Translations under genes and position numbers: made by a program
The notes under the pieces: model-generated
Seen by the model: the letters and a program-made list of their open reading frames with translations, nothing else
Databases searched by the model: none
Told to the model about the DNA's origin: nothing
DNA from: a candidate division WOR-3 bacterium
Lineage (GTDB): Bacteria > Hydrothermota > Tepidihabitantia > Tepidihabitantales > Tepidihabitantaceae
DNA: 64,000 nucleotides
Direction: 5' to 3'
Assembly (NCBI GenBank): GCA_024653355.1
Contig: JANLFQ010000001.1
Location: forward strand, 890,576-954,575
In this document: one piece after another, positions 27,475-60,044 of the stretch
Numbering within the stretch: position 1 is the first letter of the stretch
How the letters are laid out: each line of letters opens with the position of its first letter

Positions 27475-28680
27475 ATGGCAAAACCGCATCCCAGAAGGCG
27501 CGCCCTGCTCATCGTTCTCGACGGTGTCGGGTGTGGCGCCCTACCTGATGCGGACCGATTTGGCGACCAGGGCTCAAACACATTAAAAAACCTCGCCTGC
27601 AAATTGGGCGGACTCGCCCTTCCCAACCTCAGCCGTCTTGGCTTGGGTAACATCGTTGACCTGCCCGGAGTTCCACCGGAAAAAAAACCGCAAGCCGCCT
27701 ATGGCAGAATGGCGGAAATGTCCGCGGGAAAAGATTCAACCACGGGCCATTGGGAAATCGCCGGCGTTATCACCACCGAACCGTTTCCCTTATTTCCCCA
27801 CGGGTTTCCCGAAGAACTGCTCCACCAGTTTGAGCGCCGAATTGGCAGACGGGTCATCGGCAACATCGCCGCATCGGGCACCGAAATCATCAATCGTTTG
27901 GGCGCAGAGCACCTCAAAACCGGTTTTCCCATCGTTTACACCTCAGCGGACAGCGTATTTCAAATCGCCTGCCACATCGATGTTGTACCATTGGCAGAGC
28001 TCTATCGCTTCTGTACCATCGCCCGCGAACTGCTCACCGGCAGATATCGCGTTGCCCGGGTCATCGCCCGCCCTTTTGCCGGCAAACCGGGCGCATTCTA
28101 CCGCACCCCGGAGCGCAAAGACTTCTCCTGTCCACCACCTCAACCCACCCTGCTCGACAATGTCAAAGAAGCCGGACTGGCGTCCATCGGCATCGGCAAA
28201 GTTGACGACCTGTTTGCCCACCAGGGTTTGACCGAAATTTACCATTCCGTCAACAATCAGGAGTGCATCGACTACACGCTAAACGCACTGCAAGGGTCTA
28301 AACCGGGACTGATTTTCGTCAATCTCGTTCAGTTTGATATGGACTGGGGCCATCGCAACGACTCTGCCGGTTTTGCCCGCGGCTTAGCCGAGTTTGACCT
28401 TCGCCTGCCCGAAATCATCGCCGCCCTCGAACACGACGACATTATGTTCTTAACCGCGGACCACGGCTGTGACCCGACAACACCTTCAACTGACCACTCC
28501 CGGGAATATGTGCCGCTTTTGGTCTACGGCGCGCCGGTTTGCGCCGGCATCAACATCGGTACCCGTGCCACCTTTGCCGACCTGGGCAAAACCATCGCCG
28601 AATACCTCGGGGTCAAACCCACCCCGGCCGGCACATCTTTCCTCAATGAAATAGTCAAACCCGAATTCAAAAATGGATAG
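27475..28680 (+). CDS. deoB: Phosphopentomutase
   Basis: DeoB interconverts (deoxy)ribose 1-phosphate and 5-phosphate in nucleoside catabolism. The 401-residue alkaline-phosphatase-fold enzyme has LIVLDGVGCGALPDA, the phosphothreonine loop AGKDSTTGHWE, and late metal motifs TADHGCDPTT and DHSREYVP. It lies 46 bp after tRNA-Leu and overlaps cdd by 8 bp, forming a nucleoside salvage pair. Confidence 0.95.
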   Translation: MAKPHPRRRALLIVLDGVGCGALPDADRFGDQGSNTLKNLACKLGGLALPNLSRLGLGNIVDLPGVPPEKKPQAAYGRMAEMSAGKDSTTGHWEIAGVITTEPFPLFPHGFPEELLHQFERRIGRRVIGNIAASGTEIINRLGAEHLKTGFPIVYTSADSVFQIACHIDVVPLAELYRFCTIARELLTGRYRVARVIARPFAGKPGAFYRTPERKDFSCPPPQPTLLDNVKEAGLASIGIGKVDDLFAHQGLTEIYHSVNNQECIDYTLNALQGSKPGLIFVNLVQFDMDWGHRNDSAGFARGLAEFDLRLPEIIAALEHDDIMFLTADHGCDPTTPSTDHSREYVPLLVYGAPVCAGINIGTRATFADLGKTIAEYLGVKPTPAGTSFLNEIVKPEFKNG

Positions 28681-34021: not shown

Positions 34022-34147
34022 AAAGATAAACATCGGTATCTGACAGAGCGTTCTCGTCGATTTTAACTATGCCCCATTTTGAAGCTTCAGTTTCTTTTTA
34101 TCATAGCCATCACCGCCCTGCCATTATGCGGCGCAGAAATTAATTCC

Positions 34148-34525
34148 GGATTAGAACAGAATGTTCCTTACCTGACTGCAGCCACGGCTCATACCAGTTC
34201 TGACCGGAAAACACCACCGGGAACAGAACCGGAAATGCAAATCAGGACAGCACCTAAAACCGGTCAGCAGATTATCCGGTTAGCTGGCAATAAAAGGGTG
34301 GATTAGACGGTTTTAGTTAGAACCCTGTTAATTATCAATAAGATAGGCGCTAAAAAAATCTCGAAAATGGTTTTCGGTAGCCTAAAAAGGATGGTAAGAA
34401 GGGTGATAGGAAAAGGGGTATATAATACTATCCCAGGGATTGCCCCCAGACTACTGGGGGAACGGTTTTTTGTCACTTTTCCCTGTTTTTTCGTATATTT
34501 AAATAGGGCATCATCGCTTTGCTTG
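34148..34525 (+). repeat. Copy 1 of a ~380-bp dispersed repeat (leader-like element)
   Basis: This stretch is about 90% identical (roughly 34 differences by hand alignment) to the reverse complement of 53896-54275. It ends with CCCCCAG-ACTA-CTGGGGG (34443-34460) and six T residues (34466-34471). It lies upstream of, and in the same orientation as, the C25 protease gene. A 52-codon frame is shared by both copies, but 7 of its 8 substitutions change the amino acid, so it does not behave like a conserved protein. The remaining 34526-34632 gap contains TATAAT at 34569 and AGGAGG before the next gene. Confidence 0.85.
34443..34471 (+). terminator. Terminator-like hairpin at the end of repeat copy 1
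   Basis: The 7-bp stem CCCCCAG/CTGGGGG with loop ACTA is followed by AACGG and six T residues. The other copy has an A-to-G change that turns an A-U pair into G-U, so pairing is kept. Confidence 0.5.
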
Positions 34526-34632
34526 TTATCTACCCAACCTATACTGATAATGACCTACGTTAGCACCGTATAATTTTGTTGCCCGAAGGGGTAATTTCCC
34601 TAAACTAATATATAACCTAATCAGGAGGACAA

Positions 34633-37600
34633 TTGAAAAGGACTGTAGTTTTGCTGTTTGCTATTTTGGCGGTGCTCTTTGCCGGTACTGTGAGCCACAC
34701 CGTTGACATCACACCGGACCAGATAGCTTTGCACCGCTCTGAAAACTATGATGCTGTTGAACTAACCAGCGGCTTTTTTATCCCCAACCCTGGCAAGCCG
34801 CTCCTGCCTTATAAATCCTTGACCCTGCTCATACCGGCTGATGCCCGTGTCATCACCGTTTCCGCGCAGCCGGTCGTCACCGAAGAACTACCCGGTAGTT
34901 TCACCATTTTTCCTGCCCAACCACCGGTTCCCATCTCCGCTCAAACTCCAGCCACATTTGTCGCACCGGACCCTGATATTTACAGTTCAAACAACCCATT
35001 TCCCGATCGGACACTTTTTTCCCACTCAACCGGCAGCGCGGCGGGATTTAAACTGGTAAATGTCATAATCTGCCCGTTTGAATACCATCCCGCGACCCGA
35101 AAACTTTCTCTTCACGCCCGAATTGAGGTTGTTGTCACCTACGAAGAACACGGTTCCATGCCCCTAACCCTGACTCAATCGCAGCGCGACCGCATCCGCC
35201 AGACTCTGCGTCCACTGATTTCAAACCCCGCTGACCTGAACCGTTTTGCCCCGCCGCTAAAAGAAATTGACCAGCCCGCGGTGGACTACTTGATAATCAC
35301 CAGCGCCGAACTGTCTTCATCCTTCACCCCCTACATCCAGTACAAAACGAGCCGCGGTTTAAAAACCGAACTGAGAACGGTGGAATGGGTTGCAAACAAC
35401 TACCCGGGCAGGGATTTGTCAGAAAAAATTCGTAACCTGATTATTGACTATTTTAACTCCCGCGGTCTATCTTATGTACTACTTGCCGGCGACAATCTCC
35501 AGGTGCCGGCGCGGCGCATTGAGGTCGCTGTGGGAAACGAACAGGGCTCAATACCAACCGACCTCTACTACGGCGACCTTGACTACTCCTGGGACTCGAA
35601 TCACAACAATCGCTTCGGCGAAATGGCTGACTCCGTTGACCTTTACGCCGATGTCTTTGTTGGTCGGGCATCGGTTGACAACCGTCAACAGGTTGAGAAC
35701 TTTATCGCCAAAGTCCGGACCTTTGAAAACAACCCCGCACCCGATTACATAATGAAAAGCCTTTTGCCCTCAGGCTGGCTCTGGCGTTCCCTTAACTACC
35801 ATGGCAAGTTCGTCAACGACTCCATCGCCGAAATCACGCCGCCGGACTGGACCGACCGTAAAATGGAAAATCCGCCCAGCGCGCTGGTTGTCGCCGACTC
35901 TTTTGACCGGGGATTTTTAATCTTTGACCCAGCAGGGCATGGCAACGAATCCGGTGTTTACGACGAAGACGGCACCGCCATCTACACCAACAGTGTTGCC
36001 AGCCGCCAGCAGAACGACCGCCGCTTTTCCATCATCACCTCACTCGCTTGCAATCCGGGCAACTTCGAAGCCGAAGACTGCCTTGCCGAAGTTGCCCTGA
36101 ACTGTCAGGCGGGCGGCGCCATCGCTGTAATGATGAACTCGCGTTATGGCTGGGGCACACCGCCGGTGATGGGCCCGTCAGAAAAACTGTGCGTCCGGTT
36201 TTACGACTTCCTTTTTAACTACGCCCAGTACCAGATTGGGCCCTGTCACGACCGTTCCCGGGAGGAGTATGCCGGCGCGGCAATTTACGACCCGCTCTGG
36301 CGCTGGTGTATGACCGAATTCAACCTGCTTGGTGACCCAACAATTGACATCTGGACCGCGCCACCGCATAACCTGATATTAATTACACCGGACACGATTC
36401 GTACCGGTTCCCAGACATTCACCGCCACGGTTCAAGAAGGAGGTAATCCGGCAGCCGGCGCCACGGTTACCGTGAGCAAAGATGGCGTGCTCCTTGCCAC
36501 CGGCACCACGAATAGCAGCGGGAGTGTAAGTTTGCCCATCCATCCAACAACTGCCGGGCAACTACTCATCACCACCTGGCGCCACAACAACCTGCCCAAC
36601 TCAAAAACTGTCCTCGTGGAACCGGGCGACCCGGAACCATACATTGTCTATCATCGTTATGAACTTGACGACCACGGCCAACCTTATGAAAATGGCGTCC
36701 TCGAACCCGGAGAAACCGCACGCCTGAAAATCGTTCTCAAAAACATCGGCTCCGCTGCCGCAACCAACGCCCATTTAACCCTTCGCACCTTAAACCCTAA
36801 CATCTCCATCCTTGACTCCATTGCAGCAATCGGCACCATTCCCGCTGGTGATTCGATACGCACCGATAATCTGACTGTCGCCGCCGAACCATCTACCCTG
36901 CCGGGTTCATCAGCCGATATGGTGGTGTTAATTCGGTACGACCAGGGTGAGTCCGAACTCTGGTTTTCTATTGAACTGGGCTATCCGGGCAGAACCGCAG
37001 CCGAAATTGACACCGGGATTTGTGCCCTAACCGTCACCGCGCGGGGAACATTCGGCTATGACCCGGAATTAAACCGCAAGGGCCGGGGGTTCCGTTATCC
37101 TGAATCGGACACCAGCCGATTGAACAGCGCCAGTTTTGCGCTCGGCAACTCCAGTGATTACCTTGTCGACCGTTTCTACAACCAGACTCAGGGTGGTTTA
37201 GACCAGGACTGGCACCTGCAAGATAGTCTGCGTCTTATGCTCCCGATATGGAGTGGCGATGAGGTACTATTCAGCAGTTTCAACGACCAGGGACACCCGA
37301 ACCGATGCGGCCTGGTTGTTGACCAGCGGGCATTGGGCTTTTCCCGACCTGAACTCAGCCGTTCAATTGCCCTCGTATTTGACATCTGGAACACCTCGGG
37401 CGACACATTATACAACCTCTATGCCGGTATCCTTGCCGATTTTGATGTCCGGGCAACAGACCGAATGCACGATGTTGCCTTCACCCTGCCCGAACAAAAT
37501 GCCGCCCTGATGTACAATGTCAACTCGCCATCCCCCTGTGTTGGAATTAAACTCCTTTATCCACGCACCCCGGCAAACCTTACCTGTATTGACCACAGCC

Positions 37601-38142
37601 GTTATGTTTACCCCGACTCCGGGCTTACCGACGGGATGAAGTTTCGTGCCCTTACCGGAAATCTCGGTGTTCAATCAAGTGACCGCCCCTACAACTGGTC
37701 ACTCGCGGTCGGTACCGGTCCATTTACTCTCCCCGGGCTCAATGGGAGACAAAGGGTTGCATTCGCCTTTATTGCGGCGGACGACTCCCTCAACTTTTTC
37801 TCTTCCTGTGCCGCAATTCAGAACTGGTTTGACACCGGCGTCGGATTTGAAGAAGATGCGAAAAACCCCATCCCGCCCTATTCTTTAAGCCTTTCACTCC
37901 AGCCGAATCCAATAACCAGTCGTGCTTTAATCTCCTACTCCCTGCCCCGTTCCACTCCTGTAAATATCTCAATCCTCGACATCGCCGGAAGAAAAGTCGC
38001 CACCCTGTTTAACCACGAAAACCATTCTGCGGGAACCTACAAAATCCTCTGGCAGCCAAGAAAATTAGTTCCTGGTGTCTACTTCTTGAAACTTCAAACC
38101 ATCGATTCCCGCATCACCCAAAGGTGCCTGATTCTTAAGTAA
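34633..38142 (+). CDS. Secreted gingipain-like (C25) cysteine protease with sorting domain
   Basis: This 1169-residue protein starts at a TTG preceded by AGGAGG and has a signal peptide (MKRTVVLLFAILAVLFAGTVS). A propeptide (about 25-205) precedes a peptidase C25 domain (about 215-575) with the catalytic dyad H436 (AGHGN) and C473 (SLACNPG). An Ig-like domain follows. From about residue 676 it has the ~420-residue module also present in the S8 protease at 10122-13082, ending in a sorting tail (QPNPITSRALISYSLP...GVYFLKL). In Porphyromonas this protease type is a type IX secretion substrate. The repeat element lies just upstream. Confidence 0.9.
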   Translation: MKRTVVLLFAILAVLFAGTVSHTVDITPDQIALHRSENYDAVELTSGFFIPNPGKPLLPYKSLTLLIPADARVITVSAQPVVTEELPGSFTIFPAQPPVPISAQTPATFVAPDPDIYSSNNPFPDRTLFSHSTGSAAGFKLVNVIICPFEYHPATRKLSLHARIEVVVTYEEHGSMPLTLTQSQRDRIRQTLRPLISNPADLNRFAPPLKEIDQPAVDYLIITSAELSSSFTPYIQYKTSRGLKTELRTVEWVANNYPGRDLSEKIRNLIIDYFNSRGLSYVLLAGDNLQVPARRIEVAVGNEQGSIPTDLYYGDLDYSWDSNHNNRFGEMADSVDLYADVFVGRASVDNRQQVENFIAKVRTFENNPAPDYIMKSLLPSGWLWRSLNYHGKFVNDSIAEITPPDWTDRKMENPPSALVVADSFDRGFLIFDPAGHGNESGVYDEDGTAIYTNSVASRQQNDRRFSIITSLACNPGNFEAEDCLAEVALNCQAGGAIAVMMNSRYGWGTPPVMGPSEKLCVRFYDFLFNYAQYQIGPCHDRSREEYAGAAIYDPLWRWCMTEFNLLGDPTIDIWTAPPHNLILITPDTIRTGSQTFTATVQEGGNPAAGATVTVSKDGVLLATGTTNSSGSVSLPIHPTTAGQLLITTWRHNNLPNSKTVLVEPGDPEPYIVYHRYELDDHGQPYENGVLEPGETARLKIVLKNIGSAAATNAHLTLRTLNPNISILDSIAAIGTIPAGDSIRTDNLTVAAEPSTLPGSSADMVVLIRYDQGESELWFSIELGYPGRTAAEIDTGICALTVTARGTFGYDPELNRKGRGFRYPESDTSRLNSASFALGNSSDYLVDRFYNQTQGGLDQDWHLQDSLRLMLPIWSGDEVLFSSFNDQGHPNRCGLVVDQRALGFSRPELSRSIALVFDIWNTSGDTLYNLYAGILADFDVRATDRMHDVAFTLPEQNAALMYNVNSPSPCVGIKLLYPRTPANLTCIDHSRYVYPDSGLTDGMKFRALTGNLGVQSSDRPYNWSLAVGTGPFTLPGLNGRQRVAFAFIAADDSLNFFSSCAAIQNWFDTGVGFEEDAKNPIPPYSLSLSLQPNPITSRALISYSLPRSTPVNISILDIAGRKVATLFNHENHSAGTYKILWQPRKLVPGVYFLKLQTIDSRITQRCLILK

Positions 38143-53019: not shown

Positions 53020-53841
53020 TTAAAATTTCACCAGCACCCCGAAGTTGTGCGTCAAGGGTAAAACCGGATGGGTTTTGAGCGCATAATCAACCCGGACCCG
53101 CTCCACTCCGCTACCCAATCCAAAAGAAAATGTTACCGGCTCGGTACTGGCGCCGGCACGCAGCGTCAGATACCGGGGGATGATTTCAAACTCCTGTCCC
53201 AGGGCAATTCTGGTCCGCATCCCCGGCTCCTTGGAAAATCCCAGGGCGGAATGAATACCCGGCGCCGGCGAAAAGCCCAGCCCAAACGCCAGAACCCGGC
53301 TAATCTCCGACGCGCCAATTCGGGGCAAATTTATATTGTGGACATAAAAACCTGCGCTCCAGAAACGGTGCACCCGGGCAAACATTCCCAGGTCCAGACC
53401 AGCGGTCCAGCCCTGACCATAATCCTTTTGATAAAGGTTGTACCCATTTAGCCCATAACCAAAAAATATCCCCTCTGCCAGTTCAAACCCGTGCGCCAGT
53501 TTTATTGACCGCTGTGATTGAAGGGAAAAGCCGGTCTCCTGAACCCGCAGACCAAAAGTCCCGAACCTCTTAACAGGTATGCCAATGCCGGCGTAAACCG
53601 TATGCAAACCAACATCAACACCGCTGTAAAGCAACTTATAAAACCCAAGGAACTGCCGTTCCGGCACCTGCGCCAGCCCTGCGGGATTAAAATCAATCGC
53701 ACTGATGTCATCGGCCAGTGCCCAGAAAGCACCGCCCATACCTTCCGCGCGCACGCTGGAACCGTCGTCTTCAAAAATGGCATACCCGGAAGAAAAAAGA
53801 ACCACCCAAACACCGACCAATGTCGCAAAATTCGCCTTCAT
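53020..53841 (-). CDS. PorV/PorQ-like outer-membrane protein
   Basis: This 273-residue protein has a signal peptide (MKANFATLVGVWVVLFSSGYA) and the PorV/PorQ family opening RAEGMGGAFWALADDISAIDFNPAGLA. A beta-barrel pattern ends in VLVKF with a terminal Phe. PorV-type proteins shuttle cargo in type IX secretion, consistent with several tail-bearing proteases in this window. The ATG at 53841 is 8 nt after a -10 box and is preferred over the Met at 53877. It opens a six-gene operon ending at 45177. Confidence 0.85.
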   Translation of the reverse strand: MKANFATLVGVWVVLFSSGYAIFEDDGSSVRAEGMGGAFWALADDISAIDFNPAGLAQVPERQFLGFYKLLYSGVDVGLHTVYAGIGIPVKRFGTFGLRVQETGFSLQSQRSIKLAHGFELAEGIFFGYGLNGYNLYQKDYGQGWTAGLDLGMFARVHRFWSAGFYVHNINLPRIGASEISRVLAFGLGFSPAPGIHSALGFSKEPGMRTRIALGQEFEIIPRYLTLRAGASTEPVTFSFGLGSGVERVRVDYALKTHPVLPLTHNFGVLVKF

Positions 53842-53849
53842 TAAACTCC

Positions 53850-53877
53850 ATTCTATCCAGTATGATTTTTGAGTCAA
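53850..53877 (-). promoter_or_regulatory. Promoter of the PorV operon
   Basis: TTGACT (53872-53877), 16-bp spacer, TAGAAT (53850-53855), then 8 nt (including GGAG) to the ATG at 53841. Repeat copy 2 ends about 20 bp upstream. Confidence 0.6.
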
Positions 53878-53895: not shown

Positions 53896-54275
53896 ACAAG
53901 GAAAGCGATGCTACTCCCTATTTAATATACGATAAAACAAGGAAAAGTGACAAAAAACCGTTCCCCCAGTAGTCCGGGGGCAATCCCTGGGATAGTCTTA
54001 TATACCCCTTTTTCTATCACCCTTCTTACCATCCTTATCAGTCTGCTGAAAACCTTTTTCGAGGCCGTTTTCCCGCCTATCTTATCGATAATCAACAGGG
54101 TTCTAACTGAAACCGTCTAATCCACCCTTTTATTGCCAACTAACCTGATAATCTGCTGACCGGTTTTAAGTGCTGTCCTGATTTGCATTTCCGGTTCTGT
54201 TCCCGGTGGTGTTTTCCGGTCAGAACTGGTATGAGCCATGACTGGAGTCAGGTAAGGACCTTTCTGTTCTAATCC
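53896..54275 (-). repeat. Copy 2 of the ~380-bp dispersed repeat, inverted
   Basis: This is about 90% identical to 34148-34525 in reverse orientation. It lies directly upstream of, and in the same orientation as, the PorV-like gene. Differences cluster in a short central segment (near 54060), while the hairpin end is nearly invariant. A weaker match may extend to about 54330. The rest of the 54276-54422 gap shows nothing recognisable. Confidence 0.85.
53952..53980 (-). terminator. Terminator-like hairpin at the end of repeat copy 2
   Basis: On the - strand CCCCCGG-ACTA-CTGGGGG is followed by AACGG and six T residues, just upstream of the PorV promoter. Confidence 0.5.
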
Positions 54276-54422
54276 TGACTTAATTTATACTGACTTATCA
54301 ATCGGCTTCGGCGGCAATGACAGGGCAGAAAACCTGTACATCGCTTTGGTGGCGGATTAACAACCGATAACGAATTTATGCCCGATACAAAACAACTAAC
54401 TGTTTATCTAACCCCGAAACCG

Positions 54423-59616: not shown

Positions 59617-59984
59617 GAAGGCGGGTCGGACGGTCGCTCCTGATTTTCAGGAGAGGAAAGTCCGGGCACCGAAGGGCAGGACACTCGCTAACGGCGAGGC
59701 TCCGGTTGGGTAACCAACTGGGGACGGAAAGTGCCACAGAAACGACACCGCCCTGCACCTTTTGTGTAGGGTAAGGGTGAAATAGTGCGGTAAGAGCGCA
59801 CTATCCGGTGTGGTGACACATCGGATGGGTAAACCCTGTCCGGTGCAAGACCAAATTGGGAATCGGACTGGCCCGGTCCAGATGATTCCCGGGTAGGTCG
59901 CTTGAGACCGCGGGTAACCGCCGGTCCCAGAGAAATGACCGTCACCCGTAAGGGAGACAGAACCCGGCTTACAGACCCGCCTTC
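59617..59984 (+). ncRNA. rnpB: RNase P RNA, bacterial type A
   Basis: The terminal helix GAAGGCGGGTC pairs with GACCCGCCTTC. Universal core motifs are present: GAGGAAAGTCCGGGC (P4 5' strand region), CACAGAAA, GGTAAACCC and the 3' AGACAGAACCCGGCTTA. Length of about 368 nt fits type A. It processes the 5' ends of pre-tRNAs. Between 59985 and the next promoter nothing else is seen. Confidence 0.96.
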
Positions 59985-60044
59985 AAAAAATCTCCTTTTA
60001 CCTGAAATCCCCTCATCAACCCTGCTGTATTTTTTATCCTGAAT

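Follow-up and report, generated by a model that had tools for sequence, protein, structure and literature searches.

An intergenic stretch upstream of a C25 peptidase gene in a candidate division WOR-3 bacterium recurs in inverted orientation within the same window (the whole 64,000-nucleotide stretch of DNA analysed here), which raises the question of what such a repeat might do. A preliminary description, made by reading the letters, had offered a transcription-attenuating leader, a small RNA gene or a non-autonomous mobile element. BLAST and alignment established that the repeat itself is real: 34140-34530 (+) matches the reverse complement of about 53896-54283 with 91% identity over 388 bases (E 1.3e-152). 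The hairpin and T-run described there were found in both window copies, and the stem change from A-T to G-T between them was confirmed. The main feature beyond that description is an exact 12-bp internal periodicity. The parts of the two copies and the genes after them are as follows.

34148..34205, +, 5' extension, mainly common to the closest copies, with a unit signal that is weak or out of phase (alignment; unit score about 0 at -324 to -276)
34206..34445, +, copy A, 20 units of 12 bp, with example rows CGGAAATGCAAA, ATTAGACGGTTT and CAGGGATTGCCC (12-bp autocorrelation, spectral z 7.1; leave-one-out unit scores)
34443..34460, +, copy A hairpin C5AG-ACTA-CTG5, a 7-bp stem then a T-run (terminator-like scan)
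34470..34499, +, copy A promoter-like 3' module TTGTCA-N18-TATATT, which includes TTGTCAC-N15-CGTAT (10 of 12 sigma-70 consensus matches)
34633..38142, +, gene after copy A, C25 peptidase with a C-terminal sorting domain (Pfam PF01364, PF08126, PF18962)
53978..54217, -, copy B, 20 units of 12 bp (z 6.2 at period 12)
53963..53980, -, copy B counterpart of the copy A hairpin (alignment)
53924..53953, -, copy B promoter-like module TTGTCA-N18-TATATT (sequence; scan)
53020..53877, -, gene after copy B, probable outer-membrane protein whose match to UPF0164 is weak, under the curated cut-off, and whose start codon is uncertain (Pfam PF03687, E 2.6e-4)

Each copy is an array of exact 12-bp units

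BLAST of the element against its own genome (G000) returned 18 matches, far beyond chance, and a profile built from 26 copies found 23. These family copies align nearly gap-free over about 300 bp, and each of them consists of about 20 degenerate direct repeats, exactly 12 bp each and contiguous. Conservation along the family alignment peaked near period 12 and not at 3, and the profile autocorrelation was highest at lags of 12, 48, 72, 60, 24 and 36 nt. Nearly every single copy showed power at period 12.0 that lay 3-8 SD above shuffles, with little at 11.5 or 12.5; the weakest were L010 (z 0.5, an exception) and L013 (z 2.7). An untrained scan of the 64 kb placed both window copies among the three most 12-periodic places, and the third, a peak at 27661, was set aside as it lies inside a phosphopentomutase gene.

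Leave-one-out unit scores gave the arrays sharp bounds at -264 and -24, counted from TTGTCAC; a single unit, at -192, is out of phase. The purine/pyrimidine (R/Y) pattern of the unit is roughly R5-Y-R2-Y4, i.e. YRRRRRYRRYYY, and R/Y accounts for 2.13 of the 2.84 bits of unit information (three quarters). In a sub-family, about 70 bp of the middle part is swapped for a different sequence with 3-base gaps, and the total length is unchanged because these gaps compensate. A CRISPR identity was rejected, since the 12-bp units are contiguous and degenerate, not near-identical repeats with spacers. The explanation that we favour, with a probability of about 0.45, is that the array is a DNA scaffold preceding a promoter, on which protein protomers bind cooperatively, each taking up 12 bp.

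Arrays of the same unit occur outside the family

A period-12 scan of 224 intergenic gaps ranked several gaps without a family copy at the top, for example C3:164350-164524, where the 12-mers CGGTTCTGGGAA, CGGTTCTGGGAG and CGGTTCGGTGAG are visible. One of the top gaps, C2:357861, is a CRISPR array and was not counted; it belongs to a CRISPR locus at the contig end (L200, G000 C2:356900-358789) with the repeat GTTGTTATGCTACTTCCATTAAAACAAGGATTGAAAC. Cyclic 12-mer learning from three different seeds led to one motif, cGRRRAYGGTtc, for which 94-95 of 324 gaps reached 14 bits or more; among shuffled gaps, 14-20 did. With the family copies removed, 29/301 gaps still scored at least 25 bits, against none in shuffled gaps and 0/648 coding windows (p ~1e-15). 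Units inside and outside the family correlate at 0.86 and share the same phase. The non-family arrays lie in both orientations with no orientation preference, and some stand in convergent gaps, which means that they cannot in general serve to control promoters. One of them (C2:224064-224497, G000) occupies a divergent gap near an ECF sigma gene (C2:223158), and its 434 bases show no indel against the congener G001.

A broader reading than the scaffold is possible, if doubtful: an exact 12-bp purine/pyrimidine rhythm in dozens of intergenic regions might form a chromosome-wide code, read by a putative genome-wide coating protein. This would amount to a chromatin-like system of phased DNA in a bacterium, with the 23 promoter-linked copies as one specialised class. 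We consider it unlikely that the rhythm is instead an intrinsic DNA-structure or nucleoid-packaging signal that, together with general nucleoid proteins, favours wrapping or under-wound DNA and needs no dedicated sequence-specific binder, so that nearness to promoters follows from exclusion from genes. The predominance of R/Y information, the presence of arrays in all intergenic gap classes and in none of the coding windows, and the lack of orientation preference outside the family all suit such a signal. Against it, the unit is strand-polar, its period is exactly 12.0 and not the helical repeat of 10-11 bp, and the family arrays are strictly paired with one motif at fixed phase.

A promoter-like module ends the family copies

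The 3' end of the family copies carries nearly invariant TTGTCAC, 15 bases, CGTAT (CGTATA) and then an A/T-rich stretch, in fixed phase to the array, with TGTCAC and CGTAT nearly invariant. In the stretches of the genome that were read, TTGTCAC-N15-CGTAT had 16 occurrences, where 0.22 were expected, and all 16 lay in family copies. Read as a promoter, the module is TTGTCA-N18-TATAWT; in the window copy, TTGTCA-N18-TATATT has hexamers of sigma-70 type (TTGACA-like and TATAAT-like, with 16-18 bases between them as the accepted range) and matches 10/12 consensus positions. Another genus of the same family (G014) has the variants TTGGCAC and GCGTATA. In G021, from another family of the order, 25 bases at C4:57346-57370 (L020) match the module over its spacer and CGTAT; a gene that has a good ribosome site follows 70 bases further on.

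It is rather improbable that an alternative-sigma promoter (TGTCAC-N15-CGTA, ECF-like) is the functional part and defines a regulon, with the array as ancestral baggage or a secondary activator site. The module is indeed nearly invariant and confined to the family, and ECF41 promoters read TGTCACA-n16-CGTC (PMC3426412), but the spacing here is about two bases shorter: under the definition TGTCACA-n16(+/-1)-CGTC, the module departs as TGTCACT-N14-CGTA. The same letters also fit sigma-70 with an 18-bp spacer, and both species have arrays without the module (L075/L077, L082/L083). ECF sigma genes occur in array-free relatives as well and do not separate array-bearing from array-free genomes, and an alternative sigma factor was rejected as the partner of the arrays.

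Family copies stand upstream of diverse genes

A simple codon-score caller, used for gene finding in the genome stretches, called a downstream gene for 22 of the 23 family copies, co-oriented with the copy in all 22. Eleven of these lie in divergent gaps, where orientation is uninformative, and 11 in tandem gaps, where co-orientation was 11/11 (p 0.001). Convergent gaps held no family copy (p 0.07 alone), nor did the inside of confident genes. The repeat was thus borne out as a non-coding intergenic element in the same orientation as the next gene.

The preference for envelope and secretion genes that had been suggested from the window did not hold. The downstream genes are diverse and include a formyltransferase (purN), a MazG-like gene, a class II aminoacyl-tRNA synthetase, a lactamase-fold gene, POR, a pilB-type ATPase (T2SSE), ribAB, PhoH, a PAS protein, a TPR protein and several secreted proteins; at two loci the first downstream gene is a tRNA (recognised by reading). 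Family copies L009 and L013 (G000) and L080 (G001) each stand before the promoter of a tRNA-like gene that is itself followed by a protein gene. At L019, L021, L026, L027 and L028 (G001), short secreted-looking ORFs (MRNFKAA...) lie downstream of the element; they have a conserved leader with CTACT pentanucleotide runs and are possible phase-variable contingency genes.

Many downstream genes have their own TTGACA-type promoter between the element and the start codon. Because such TTGACA-N16/17-TATAAT promoters are frequent, the module need not serve as main promoter, and the simple view of it as the gene's promoter is weakened. Replication polarity was also considered and dropped: the family copies follow GC skew mostly, not always, and no more than genes might. 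The skew changes sign at about 420-490 kb of G000 C1, a likely replication origin or terminus.

Arrays keep their length and were inherited at orthologous places

Five ortholog array pairs between G000 and G001 show 62-75% identity with no gap over 240 bp. Among gaps comparable end to end, which are few, indel events per substitution were 1/301 in arrays vs 20/664 in non-array parts (p 0.007); adding the indel-free remainder of two array-bearing gaps as a stricter control gave p 0.02. Whole gaps with two non-family arrays were also free of indels. These comparisons indicate that the arrays, in this small sample, accept substitutions and almost no indels. The transition/transversion ratio of the ortholog arrays was 1.07, not above that of the flanks.

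Profile search found 18 copies in the congener G001 (11 by BLAST), nine weaker matches in G014, one remnant in G002 and no family copy in G006 or G010. The arrays examined in G014 also have period 12, and 400 kb of G010, from the same family, showed no period-12 excess; the survey for absence of arrays rests on G010, with G002 and G006 judged by profile search. BLAST against plasmid and phage collections gave no match, and the exact core motif had two scattered matches in named genomes and none in viral contigs. Copies in G000 and G001 occupy orthologous places, before or after the same genes, and were therefore inherited. In both genomes phoH is preceded by a secreted-repeat protein gene and by the element, whereas in G002 recA (recognised by reading) and phoH are divergent neighbours with only a native promoter between them; the element is thus dispensable for phoH, since the phoH of G002 does without it.

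The two window copies are 91% identical and the matching G001 pair 85%, against 67-71% for cross-species pairs, whose flanking proteins are 91-92% identical. As identity within a genome exceeds that between species, the copies must have been homogenised within each genome. The pair consists in both species of two inverted copies 20 kb apart (window 34206-34499 and 53924-54217; L019, L021), a case of concerted evolution.

An active non-autonomous mobile element is disfavoured by the many orthologous sites, and a dispersed, now mostly immobile one, whose ancestral array served as transposase binding sites, is improbable too. It would account for the many copies, their patchy occurrence (G000, G001 and G014, not G006 or G010) and the differing upstream genes beside them. 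However, copies were kept vertically, the Y1 transposase (PF01797) is absent from G000, G001 and G014, and inspection by eye of the ends of the two closest copies showed neither terminal inverted repeats nor target duplications. Moreover, orientation is fixed in tandem gaps, and the 12-bp unit recurs in dozens of arrays without family similarity.

The repeat is neither an RNA nor a gene

An RNA reading, in which a regulatory leader or a small RNA is transcribed and ends at the hairpin and T-run, is disfavoured and, in our view, very improbable. The window copy does fold better than shuffles (z -2.48) and has a terminator-like hairpin at 34443-34460, but hairpins of this kind occur in the region at chance frequency. 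The family has no consensus fold (-1.55 kcal/mol over 355 columns), and per-copy z-scores of the arrays, obtained with two kinds of shuffle, averaged -0.35. The stem held in both window copies; it was not conserved family-wide, as three of the seven pairs are each disrupted in 7-16 members of a set of 26 copies. Covariation in the proposed stem was no better than shuffled (pairing in 75.8% vs 74.1% of cells, with a double change at one pair) and not significant. In addition, invariant sequence runs 30 bp beyond the T-run, array-like gaps occur in both orientations, and Rfam at gathering and permissive thresholds yielded nothing useful; a single lncRNA match, below threshold, lay on the opposite strand. 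These data indicate that the repeat is not an RNA. The window does contain an RNase P RNA gene, class A, at 59618-59987.

A coding sequence with four-residue repeats, whether a remnant or an overlooked one, is most improbable. Stops are fewer in one forward frame than in the other two, and parts of some copies read open in it, but this frame still carries about four stops per copy. All frames contain stops, and conservation shows no 3-base rhythm; an intact gene is refuted.

Discussion

The arrays vary freely by substitution while their length is fixed, their strand-polar unit recurs in exact register, and they keep a constant phase to the promoter-like motif; together, these features suggest a linear scaffold for protomers 12 bp apart. 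In this proposal, about 20 contiguous 12-bp repeats of double-stranded DNA, joined at fixed phase to the module, would be bound cooperatively by a putative protein, one protomer per 12 bp and partly via shape (R/Y) readout, and would cover the array with a filament. In the 23-copy family, this filament would stop beside the module and set the activity of that promoter or, alternatively, insulate the gene's own promoter further downstream. We infer the binding, the coating protein and the effect on transcription from the pattern of the repeats. Several observations count against the scaffold: the search for ribbon-helix-helix proteins (PF01402) as binders gave one weak match in G000 and no match in either G001 or G014, the occurrence of ECF sigma factors does not follow that of the arrays, downstream genes often have promoters of their own, non-family arrays lack a preferred orientation, phoH in G002 has no element, and the transition/transversion ratio is not raised. 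If the proposal is right, one bacterial chromosome would carry dozens of long phase-exact 12-bp intergenic arrays, two dozen of them tied to one promoter-like motif. This would point to a DNA-coating regulator or chromatin protein, and the arrays would give a direct handle on finding it. More generally, a repeat that resembles an RNA leader can be DNA architecture.

Among known systems, REP/BIME, ERIC and MITEs are likewise multi-copy, non-coding and intergenic, but they are palindromic or transposase-linked, whereas the array here is tandem and directional, with no palindrome and no Y1 transposase. The module shares the TGTCAC and CGT boxes of ECF41-type promoters (PMC3426412), with a spacer about two bases shorter and a conserved upstream array that is not described for ECF41. 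Genome-wide A-tract periodicity of 10-11 bp in bacteria (PMC4132750, PMC3940949) is also a periodic DNA signal with a possible link to nucleoid structure. That signal is helical and A/T based, in contrast to the exactly 12-bp, R/Y-based rhythm here, which is limited to discrete intergenic arrays.

The literature searched yielded no bacterial system of comparable scale, with dozens of long phase-exact 12-bp arrays. As in tandem operators and centromere-type sites, the repeats here are contiguous, direct and constant in length (12.0 bp, about 20 units). The tubC unit of pBtoxis is 12 bp long. In TubR/tubC and ParR/parC, a small DNA-binding protein forms a filament that coats blocks of direct repeats (PMC5016525). 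The blocks of direct repeats are common to these systems and the element, for which coating is putative; unlike the element, both are plasmid centromeres with a single locus and few repeats.

The omega protein (ParB) of pSM19035, a ribbon-helix-helix protein, coats 7-10 contiguous heptads that overlap promoters (PMC9499535, PMC5016525). In pSM19035 parS as in the arrays, short, contiguous, non-palindromic direct repeats stand beside or over promoters, and the cooperative filament formed there would have its counterpart here. The two differ in scale and conservation: parS has 7-bp units in 7-10 repeats with a well conserved consensus, at few sites on one plasmid, whereas the arrays have very degenerate 12-bp units in about 20 repeats at dozens of chromosomal sites. 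Taken as an analogy, omega of pSM19035 is the closest worked example of what the scaffold may be.
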